This document shows, in pieces, positions 8,239-33,583 of a stretch of DNA of 64,000 bases; positions within the stretch are counted from its first letter, which is position 1, and each line of letters opens with the position of its first letter. The translations under genes and the position numbers were made by a program. The stretch is from Synechococcus sp. WH 8101 (lineage in GTDB: Bacteria; Cyanobacteriota; Cyanobacteriia; PCC-6307; Cyanobiaceae): NCBI RefSeq assembly GCF_004209775.1, contig NZ_CP035914.1, forward strand, positions 1,984,001 to 2,048,000. The letters run 5' to 3'. The notes beneath the pieces were generated by a model. The model saw only the letters and a list, made by a program, of their open reading frames with translations, had not been told where the DNA came from and did not search any database.

Positions 8239-8299
8239 GCATTGCGTCCGATTGATCTGCAGGGTAGGAAGACACCTCGCCTACCAAGCCATCCCCGCC

Positions 8300-17185: not shown

Positions 17186-18112
17186 ATGCCTAGGGTTCCG
17201 CAGTTGCAGAGCGTCGTGAGCAGCGCGTTGTCCCGTTCCGACCTCACCGCCTGGATCCAGCTGCTGCGCTGGAACAAACCCACGGGTCGCCTGATCCTGC
17301 TGATTCCGGCGGGCTGGAGTTTGTGGCTGGCACCCACCGCCCCACCGTCTCCCTCCCTGGTGTTGTGGATCGCGCTGGGGGGCGTGGCCATCAGTGGCGC
17401 CGGCTGCATTGCCAACGACCTCTGGGATCGGCGCTTCGATCGAGAGGTCGCCCGCACCCGCAACCGCCCCCTGGCCCAGGGAAAGCTCTCGCTCACCTCG
17501 GCATTTGCCGCCCTGGTGCTTCTGCTGCTGCTCGGCCTGGCGGTGGTGCTGGCGTTGCCGGCGACCAGCCGACTGACCTGTCTACTGCTGGCGATTCTGG
17601 CCTTACCCCCGATCCTTCTCTATCCATCAGCGAAACGCTGGCTGGCCTATCCCCAGGCGGTTCTGGCCCTCTGCTGGGGATTCGCCGTCCTGATTCCCTG
17701 GGCCGCCAGCGGCGCCAGCCTGCAGGCGTCCTGGCCTTTGCTCGGCTGCTGGATGGCCACCCTGCTCTGGACCTTCGGGTTCGACACCGTCTATGCCATG
17801 GCAGACAGACCTGACGATGCCCGTCTGGGCCTGAACAGCAGCGCCCTGAGCCTGGGCCATCGCGCCGTGCGCGTGGTGCGCATCAGCTACGCCCTCACCA
17901 GCCTCTGCCTGGCGATCGCCGCCTGGCAAGGTGGCCTGGGCTGGCTGTTCTGGCCCTGCTGGCTCCTCGCAAGCGTCGGCATGCAGCGCGCTACGGGCGA
18001 GCTGCGCGGCGATCAGTCCCAGCCGATGGCTCTCTTCGGACGCCATTTCCAGCAGCAGGTCTGGCTCGGATCCCTGCTGCTCTTGGGTCTGATTCTGGGC
18101 AGGATTCTCTGA
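17186..18112 (+). CDS. UbiA-family prenyltransferase (4-hydroxybenzoate/plastoquinone pathway)
   Basis: An integral membrane aromatic prenyltransferase of 308 residues from ATG 17186. RWNKPTGRLILLIPAGWSLW is the ubiquinone/plastoquinone-branch N-terminus. The first Asp motif is NDLWDRRFDREVARTRNRPL and the second is DTVYAMADRPDDARLG, both Mg2+/prenyl-diphosphate ligands. Other helices are plain hydrophobic. Placement after a divergent ppx and the RPL/NDxxD spacing favour the 4-hydroxybenzoate solanesyltransferase of plastoquinone synthesis over ctaB, which is separately present at 27772. Confidence 0.9.
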   Translation: MPRVPQLQSVVSSALSRSDLTAWIQLLRWNKPTGRLILLIPAGWSLWLAPTAPPSPSLVLWIALGGVAISGAGCIANDLWDRRFDREVARTRNRPLAQGKLSLTSAFAALVLLLLLGLAVVLALPATSRLTCLLLAILALPPILLYPSAKRWLAYPQAVLALCWGFAVLIPWAASGASLQASWPLLGCWMATLLWTFGFDTVYAMADRPDDARLGLNSSALSLGHRAVRVVRISYALTSLCLAIAAWQGGLGWLFWPCWLLASVGMQRATGELRGDQSQPMALFGRHFQQQVWLGSLLLLGLILGRIL

Positions 18113-18137
18113 GCCACGACCCACCGCCGCACCCCCC

Positions 18138-19043
18138 TTGGCTCCTCGCCCCGATCACCGGGCTGTCCTTCCGCCCCCTCAGCCCTTGCAACAGGGTGAT
18201 GGCGTCGCCGTGGTGGCCGCCAGTTCCGCCCTTGAAGATGCCAGTGCCCTTCAGGCCGGCCTCGATCTGCTGAGGTCCTGGGGATTGGAGGTGAAACCGA
18301 GCGAGGCAAGCGGGCGACGCTGGGGCTATCTGGCCGGGACGGATCGAGAGCGCCGCGCCGATCTCATGCCCACACCCCCAGCCCGGCTCCTGGCCTGTGC
18401 CCGTGGCGGCTGGGGGGCCGCCCGGCTGCTGGAGGAGCCACTGCACTGGAGCCCTGGATGGTTGTTGGGCTTCTCCGATGTGACCGCCCTGCTCTGGGCC
18501 CGCTTAGCCGCCGGCGTCCCCGGCGGCTAAGCGGGCCCTCTGCTCACCACGCTGGCCAGCGAGCCGGGCTGGAGTCAGCAACGCCTGCACGATCTGTTGT
18601 TTGGCCAGCCCATTCCCCCCCTGCAGGGCTGCAGCTGGCGAGGGGGCCGCAGCCACGGCCCCCTGGTGGTGGCGAATCTCACGGTGGCCAGTCACCTGCT
18701 CGGCAGCAGCCACGTTCCCAACCTCGATGGGGCGATTCTGGTGCTGGAAGACGTCGGCGAAGCGCCCTACCGGCTCGATCGCATGCTCACCCACTGGCGC
18801 CTGCTTGGACTGCTGCAGAACCTGGCTGGCCTCGGCTTCGGTCGCTTCAGCGGATGCGAGGAACGGGACGGGGAGCGCTCCGGCTTCCAGGTGGAGGATG
18901 TGTTGCGGGAGCGGACGGCCGACCTGGCCATCCCGCTGCTGGGCGAGCTACCCCTGGGCCACGGTGCAGGCGGCAATGCGGCGCTGCCCCTGGGCCGAAT
19001 GGCGGAACTCGATGGCGATCGGGGCCTACTCAGCCTGCTCTGA
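18138..19043 (+). pseudogene. LD-carboxypeptidase (peptidase S66) gene with in-frame stop
   Basis: One reading frame that would encode an LdcA/MccF-type enzyme, trimming murein tetrapeptides, is broken by TAA at 18528-18530. The first 130 codons (TTG 18138) carry the start VAVVAASSAL and the nucleophile motif GFSDVTALLW with Ser113. After the stop the same frame continues with AGPLLTTLA, VANLTVASHLLGS, the catalytic-Glu region VLEDVGEAPYRLDR and the catalytic-His region LGHGAGGNAALPLG to 19043. The stop separates the nucleophile from Glu and His, so the truncated product cannot be active. Codon use is otherwise coding throughout, and the stop lies in the right arm of a perfect 19-bp palindrome. 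The start codon is uncertain. Confidence 0.85.
18496..18538. repeat. perfect 19-bp inverted repeat with 5-base loop
   Basis: GGGCCCGCTTAGCCGCCGG (18496-18514), loop CGTCC (18515-18519), then its exact reverse complement (18520-18538). It lies inside the LD-carboxypeptidase frame and supplies that gene's premature TAA from its right arm. No T tract follows, so it is not a normal terminator. Confidence 0.97.
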
Positions 19044-19707
19044 GCGCCAGCACCGCCTCCGCCACGATGAGATCAAAGGGCGTCGTGACCTTGATGTTGG
19101 CGGGGCCGGCCTCCAGCACGCGCACCTGCCATCCCAGCCGCTCATACAGCGAGGCATCGTCGGTGACACTCCAGCCCTGCTCGAGCGCTTGACGGTGCCC
19201 CTGCCGCAGCTGCTCCACAGCAAACCCCTGGGGAGTCTGCGCTGCCCAGAGGCTGGAGCGATCCGGCGTTGCGGTGATCCGCCCCGCCTCATCCACACGC
19301 TTAATGGTGTCGGTCACGGGTGTGGCGGCAATGACCGCTTCTCCCGCCTCCACCGCTGAGGCACAGCGATTGAACAGCTCCGGCTCCACCAGGCAACGCG
19401 CTCCGTCGTGAATGAGCACATGCAGGGCCTCCGCCGGCAGGGCTGCCAGACCTCGCTCCACAGACTGCTGGCGGGTGCTGCCGCCTTCGATCCAGATCAC
19501 CGGCTTGGCCGTGTCGCTCATCAGCGGAGCGATGGCGGCCTGATCCACCGGTTGGCCAACGATGCCGATCCAGGAAATGGACGAGGCCTTCAACGCCGCC
19601 TCCAGGGTCCAGGCCAGCACCGGCCTCCCGGCCAGGGGGAGGAGCAGCTTGTTGCACTCGGCACCCATGCGACGTCCACTGCCAGCGGCGGCGATCAACA
19701 GATGCAC
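19030..19707 (-). CDS. ispD: 2-C-methyl-D-erythritol 4-phosphate cytidylyltransferase
   Basis: The third enzyme of the MEP isoprenoid pathway, which supplies carotenoids, chlorophyll phytyl chains and quinone tails. The family start is [20 protein letters not shown] with the CTP-binding Gly-rich loop. GTG at 19707 gives 225 residues, a typical length; an ATG at 19746 is possible. Later landmarks are [42 protein letters not shown] and [10 protein letters not shown]. It is convergent with the broken LD-carboxypeptidase gene (14-base overlap) and divergent from the GT9-like gene by 73 bases. Confidence 0.96.
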
Positions 19708-33168: not shown

Positions 33169-33573
33169 ATGCTGGTCGGCAAGGAGCTTCTCGACAAGGC
33201 GCGCGCACTCAGCAATCGCCCAGAGGATGAGATCGCGAGAGGCTGCGGCTACGTGGGCCCCAGCGGCCGCCTGCTTCGCAAGAGCTTTTACCGGGCCCTC
33301 GTGGAAGCGAAGGGATACAAGCTGCCCACCTCTGGGGCTGGCGCTGGTGGTGGCACCCGAGGCCGCCAAGCTGAATTCCGCACCCGTGTGCATGGCAACG
33401 GCAATCTGCTCATCGGGCATGCCTACACGCGACGGCTCGGACTAGAGCCGGGCCAGGAGTTCCGGATTGAACTGCATCGGGACTCGGGCTCGATCTGGCT
33501 GCTGCCACTCGATGAGCAAGACCTCGATGGGCAAAACGACCACCCGGATCAGAGCGACGAGGCTGCGCTCTGA
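33169..33573 (+). CDS. cyAbrB transcriptional regulator
   Basis: A 134-residue cyanobacterial AbrB-like DNA-binding protein; family members act as global regulators of carbon-nitrogen balance. The N-terminal part GKELLDKARALSN and EIARGCGYVGPSGRLLRKSF is characteristic of the cyanobacterial subfamily. The AbrB domain follows as FRTRVHGNGNLLIGHAYTRR then LGLEPGQEFRIEL, and the tail is acidic. The 3' end forms one arm of a perfect 18-bp hairpin. It may be transcribed from its own promoter or by readthrough from ctaCDE. Confidence 0.92.
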   Translation: MLVGKELLDKARALSNRPEDEIARGCGYVGPSGRLLRKSFYRALVEAKGYKLPTSGAGAGGGTRGRQAEFRTRVHGNGNLLIGHAYTRRLGLEPGQEFRIELHRDSGSIWLLPLDEQDLDGQNDHPDQSDEAAL

Positions 33574-33583
33574 TCCGGGTGGT
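33539..33583. terminator. 18-bp hairpin straddling the cyAbrB stop codon
   Basis: ACCACCCGGATCAGAGCG (33539-33556) pairs perfectly with 33566-33583 around a nine-base loop. The cyAbrB TGA (33571-33573) is inside the right arm. There is no T tract. It sits between convergent cyAbrB and the HdeD-like gene, whose stop is at 33590, so it probably ends or stabilises both transcripts. Confidence 0.7.

Follow-up and report, generated by a model that had tools for sequence, protein, structure and literature searches.

The window analysed here, a stretch of 64,000 nucleotides from a relative of Synechococcus and Cyanobium, carries a gene for an LD-carboxypeptidase of peptidase family S66 whose continuous frame is absent: it is broken by a TAA at 18528. 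A preliminary description of the DNA had held this frame to be open from 18138 to 19043 save for one TAA at 18528-18530, and analysis of the reading frame confirms that this codon and the final stop are its only interruptions. The features of the locus are collected in Table 1.

The GFSD motif, which presumably holds the serine nucleophile of S66 LD-carboxypeptidases, is retained in the window copy. HGP is also present at the aligned position in the solved relative 1zrs; the window copy has lost this motif and reads stop-A-G-P there. Because the window copy stops before HGP, and because its C-terminal domain is severed from the N-terminal one (Pfam profiles were run on the two halves of the gene separately), its LD-carboxypeptidase activity has probably been lost. 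The TTG at 18597, downstream of the break, is a possible restart codon.

Table 1. Coordinates of features at the interrupted S66 locus, numbered within the window
Feature	Position	Strand	Details
LD-carboxypeptidase (peptidase S66) frame	18138..19043	+	one internal stop; first standard start TTG 18138
In-frame TAA stop	18528..18530	+	reading-frame analysis
Pfam PF02016 N-terminal domain match	18204..18515	+	E 2.7e-19; profile 1-115 of 121; includes GFSD motif
Pfam PF17676 C-terminal domain match	18657..19010	+	E 2.9e-31
First downstream in-frame ORF with standard start (TTG)	18597..19043	+	spans whole C-terminal domain match
Left arm of perfect inverted repeat (donor arm)	18496..18514	+	19 nt
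Loop	18515..18519	+	5 nt; one base unlike G153; not inverted
Right arm (recipient arm)	18520..18538	+	19 nt; 100% complementary to left arm
Six donor bases copied into right arm	18501..18506	+	include derived TTA codon 18504-18506
Six-base rewritten patch	18528..18533	+	stop-Ala (TAAGCG) here, Val-His in G153
Codon Glu 142, where G153 has its own TAA	18561..18563	+	alignment; L034 (G153:C1:1975443)

Elsewhere in the genus the gene is mostly whole. Of 31 genomes, 27 have a frame of 308-408 codons; shorter frames are found in the present genome (170 codons), in its closest relative G153 (159 codons) and in G162 (206 codons, near a contig end), and the listing of these 31 genomes holds no copy for G163. 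The orthologue in G166 (L035) is intact and is flanked by the same two kinds of neighbour, which we take to be polyprenyltransferase-like and ispD-like genes. Two or more S66 genes are present in 29 of the 31 genomes; in this one another S66 gene, whose frame is open over 333 codons, lies at G000:C1:1462663-1463007 (L235).

The stop lies within an inverted repeat. According to the preliminary description, the TAA belonged to the right arm of a perfect repeat (19 bp, 5-base loop) and lay opposite a left-arm TTA encoding the Leu of ARLAAG; both statements stand, the arms being those of Table 1 and the leucine being residue 123. It is the sole repeat of this kind in the window even when up to three mismatches are allowed, and none of 100 shuffles gave one. 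As single-stranded DNA, positions 18486-18548 are predicted to fold with −30.3 kcal/mol (z −8.0), as against −18.1 (z −2.6) for the counterpart in G153. A mobile or dispersed repeat was rejected: at up to two mismatches the arms have no match in this genome besides each other.

Comparison with relatives and the origin of the stop

Relatives were sought in the 31 genomes of the genus. Over 17600-19400 the closest, G153, has 94% DNA identity and the next, G166, has 71%; there is thus one close relative only, and the interval since the split is not divisible. At the repeat, length and frame are the same in G153, without insertion, and the disrupted spot reads GVHGPLL: the claims that frame and length had been kept, and that the family normally reads about G-V-H-G-P-L-L here, were both correct. 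The two genomes share eight inner and five outer paired bases of the hairpin. Between these lie six right-arm bases, 18528-18533, all of which differ from G153, with flanks that match well, and which agree base for base with the reverse complement of 18501-18506. The donor arm has changed by one synonymous base only and the loop by one base. The six changes form one unbroken run and the opposite arm supplies a template for every one of them, which supports the suggestion that a short patch was copied from there.

Comparison across the family gives the change a direction. Among 138 loci whose arms align without gaps, the three window copies pair at 19/19 positions, and the other 135, including G153 with 13/19, never exceed 13/19; the expectation that the ancestral right arm was imperfect and became perfect only here is thereby borne out. 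Codons 131-132 could be read in 141 aligned loci, a set that includes the three window copies, G153, the paralogue L002 and some duplicates between two collections: they encode Ile-His in 93, Val-His in 44, Leu-His in one and stop-Ala in three. Since stop-Ala is found in the window copies only, the right arm of the window is the derived one. Codon 132, Ala in the window, is His in all 138 loci from elsewhere, where codon 131 is Ile, Val or Leu. The donor codon is TTG in G153 and in G166 (L035) and TTA in the window copies only, and this synonymous change from TTG to TTA is itself derived. The stop depended on it, because copying TTG would give CAA; at least two changes thus lie behind the interruption.

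A perfect, GC-rich hairpin of 19 bp might also be an element inserted in the gene and kept by selection: a terminator, a mobile repeat or a hairpin with a regulatory role. Such an element would not be expected to leave length and frame as they are in G153; in addition, no run of T follows the right arm, and the repeat sits in the middle of a gene and is imperfect in 135 other loci. We give this explanation almost no credence.

The significance of the template was gauged against other differences between the two genomes. With minus-strand matches dropped, the alignment of an 804-kb and an 800-kb sample covered 659,744 positions (82%), of which 5.7% were mismatched. The mismatches form 34,308 runs; only 10 are six or more long, 18528-18533 among them. 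For 732 gapless clusters of at least three mismatches with good flanks, a template was sought within 100 bp. The longest inverted template belongs to 18528-18533 (19 nt here, none in G153) and outruns its cluster by 13 nt, the runner-up doing so by 11. Templates that outrun the cluster by at least 10 nt number two among inverted matches (18528-18533 and a cluster at genome position 2385116) and none among direct, complement-only or reversed ones. At a threshold of 8 nt the numbers are two inverted, five direct, and no complement-only or reversed, and since direct templates there outnumber inverted ones five to two, short templates are by themselves weak evidence. It is the length of the template that stands out at 18528-18533.

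We consider it highly probable (roughly 0.88) that the stop arose by quasi-palindrome correction through template switching during replication. The starting point would be an imperfect hairpin, its eight inner and five outer paired bases enclosing a mismatched block of six. While the plus strand was being made, its nascent 3′ end would first run through the inner right arm and then fold back onto the left arm of the same strand; the eight paired bases would then serve as primer, and the nascent end would copy six bases from the left arm before returning to the proper template by way of the outer 5-base homology. In this manner six bases would be replaced at once, leaving a perfect repeat with a TAA in frame: a nonsense allele of the S66 LD-carboxypeptidase, probably a recent one. 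We infer a single event, the plus strand as the one being made and fold-back of that strand, the fold-back being drawn from geometry only; the six-base change is seen as one contiguous run between two species, and a switch to the other nascent strand would yield an identical product. Van Noort and others, in 2003, are said to have described quasipalindrome correction by strand misalignment, judged by its title the same process.

The mechanism is already known, and the locus is a new natural example of it, and an unusually clean one. Template-switch mutation associated with quasipalindromes is established in Escherichia coli at a thyA hotspot and in lacZ reporters (Ripley 1982, Viswanathan 2000, and Dutra and Lovett 2006, as cited in PMC7202029). 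There, as here, copying from the opposite arm makes an imperfect repeat perfect, or more nearly so; however, the E. coli cases are mutational hotspots and engineered reporters, whereas ours is a natural difference between species with a nonsense outcome. In coding genes of yeast, template switching between inverted-repeat arms has likewise been inferred from phylogeny, with homogenisation of the arms producing multinucleotide changes inside genes; orthologous sets with a premature stop codon were excluded from that study, and the present bacterial event is of the excluded kind (PMC8604942). Short-range switching, with mutation clusters ascribed to template-switch errors, has been described in great apes (PMC7954356), and the creation of hairpins by template switching in PMC8794818; these two works reportedly concern ape genomes or RNA sequences, whereas here a bacterial protein gene is interrupted. 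Among the matches listed, no title or abstract opening on template switching, quasi-palindromes or LD-carboxypeptidase describes this case.

What the locus offers is a known replication error seen in both of its states in close species, with a gene interrupted in what was probably one six-base step. Events of this sort can be miscounted as several substitutions, and so mimic selection or decay.

A second stop in the same gene

G153, too, has a broken copy, with an unrelated TAA 33 bp downstream of that in the window. The codon affected, 142, is Glu in the other 140 loci (GAA in 71, GAG in 69), although this residue, unlike HGP, is not conserved in 1zrs. No exact inverted or direct template for the G153 stop was found within 500 bp, and a template origin was rejected for it on that ground: the S66 gene can be interrupted without a visible template.

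Three scans were made for other broken genes. A third-position scan listed 34 stops in this genome and 21 in G153; as many of these are probably antisense frames, it was replaced by a codon-usage scan, which over ∼660 kb returned one nonsense difference per genome, both in the S66 gene, with a sensitivity of ∼38% (705 of 1876 random positions in long frames). A frame-length scan gave two candidates here and three in G153 and missed the S66 gene itself. The candidate at window position 8281 was rejected as a frame antisense to a plus-strand ORF of 525 codons; the four others may include further broken genes in either genome. As a rough guess, with two or three breaks per genome in a few hundred genes (371 long frames were counted), chance would place breaks of both genomes in one gene 1-2% of the time. 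A common cause for both stops is therefore plausible, be it a dispensable gene, loss in culture or a tolerated break, and the G153 stop poses the question of why a cell-wall recycling gene should be interrupted in parallel.

Substitution rates bear on the age of the lesions. Between this genome and G153, omega over codons 20-299 (codons 131, 132 and 142 excluded) is 0.209. The reference is a set of 85 other pairs, not independent of one another, drawn from 113 distinct genes and with dS of 0.06-0.30, in which the median is 0.212 and the range 0.074-0.345. The halves of the gene differ: omega is 0.392 in the N half, a value equalled or exceeded in two of the 85 pairs, and 0.127 in the C half, where 73 pairs are as high or higher. 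The gene is somewhat less constrained than its two neighbours, which could be compared in part (0.18 versus 0.07 and 0.12), and its alignment with G153 is free of gaps. By a simple, baseline-dependent Poisson reckoning, the maximum unconstrained share of the combined path is ∼4.5%-19% for the C half and 11%-26% for the whole gene. Because whole-gene rates are like those of intact relatives, the likelihood is that the two lesions arose recently or that the pieces remain in use; the high value in the N half allows for a degree of relaxation before that. An old pseudogene under neutral decay is disfavoured by these rates, even with the N half as high as it is.

The same figures weigh on the idea that ordinary substitutions, accumulating one by one in a decaying pseudogene, completed the palindrome by chance. 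Interruption of the gene in both relatives and the raised omega of the N half would suit such decay. Yet the overall rate matches the median of the reference pairs, omega in the C half is low and the gene has gained no gaps against G153; moreover, six contiguous changes would all have to equal the opposite arm, at odds of about (1/3)^6 if change at each of the six is granted, even before their clustering is counted. We judge this explanation very improbable.

It is also conceivable that the enzyme now works as two pieces, the C-terminal domain being made from the restart codon. Both stops, at codons 131 and 142, fall between the end of the N-domain match at codon 126 and the start of the C-domain match at 174; the TTG start lies downstream of both; the C half remains constrained; and in both genomes the one nonsense difference picked up by the codon-usage scan falls in the S66 gene. 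If so, two relatives would independently have split the same LD-carboxypeptidase, one of them by template switching, into pieces that act together – a repeated gene fission. On the other side, the window stop may clip the N-terminal domain, whose profile is matched only to 115 of 121; the window has lost a His kept in all 138 other loci and G153 a Glu kept in the other 140; and no evident ribosome-binding sequence, read by eye, precedes the TTG. Recent loss accounts for the constraint equally well, and with at least two S66 genes in most genomes of the genus (29 of 31) a second copy could stand in. Both the working of the enzyme in pieces and the repeated fission that it would imply strike us as distinctly unlikely.

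Inverted repeats elsewhere in the two genomes

Perfect inverted repeats (arms of at least 12, loop of 3-20) were counted in an 804-kb sample of this genome and in the sample of G153. Each contains 13; mirror repeats number one here and two in G153, and triplet shuffles of this genome gave three and two perfect inverted repeats. Counterparts in the other species could be aligned for 11 of the 13 repeats of this genome and 10 of the 13 of G153. In three of those found here – at 1803267, 2002496 (the repeat with the stop codon) and 2385111 – one arm differs by several bases and the other is little changed. G153 likewise has one-sided differences at 2214216 (+3 nt), 1916962 and 1747687 (+3 nt), although at 1916962 the other arm differs too, at two places. 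Polarity was tested for two only, the stop-codon repeat and that at 1803267. The one-sided rewritings in both genomes, and the excess of perfect inverted over mirror repeats, count in favour of template switching at the stop codon. With further rewritings of this kind, the two species could be used to quantify template switching in bacteria in the wild.

These repeats also bear on the possibility that the patch, known from assemblies alone, is a fold-back artefact of library preparation, sequencing or assembly, and that the gene of the organism is intact. The stretch forms a strong hairpin, a stop in a gene otherwise constrained over codons 20-299 resembles an error, and perfect repeats with one differing arm occur in both assemblies, as a systematic artefact could yield. 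Against this, each genome is a single contig with a completeness rating of 100%, and an error in the consensus would presumably have had to outvote correct reads; the codon-usage scan, within its sensitivity, turned up no further nonsense change here over ∼660 kb; and a fold-back error offers no explanation for the lesion that G153 carries in the same gene without a template. A weaker argument is that two of the rewritten arms in G153 are on balance 3 nt longer, and that one of these two lies past a stop codon. An artefact is, in our estimation, unlikely, and template switching in the organism itself remains our preferred reading of the stop.

The repeat at G000:C1:1803267-1803345 (L199/L256) is perfect, with 34-bp arms, and is 4 nt longer than its counterpart in G153. 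Its right arm resembles those of G157, G158 and G169 (the G166 row is badly aligned), and the left arm is the one that has changed. As a result of the change, a plus-strand frame shifts at its end and acquires a new tail with ELAELQERGLA, a peptide that also occurs close to the end of the minus-strand frame converging on it. Within the window, positions 33539-33583 hold another perfect inverted repeat, of 18 bp with a 9-nt loop, in which the two species differ at two positions.
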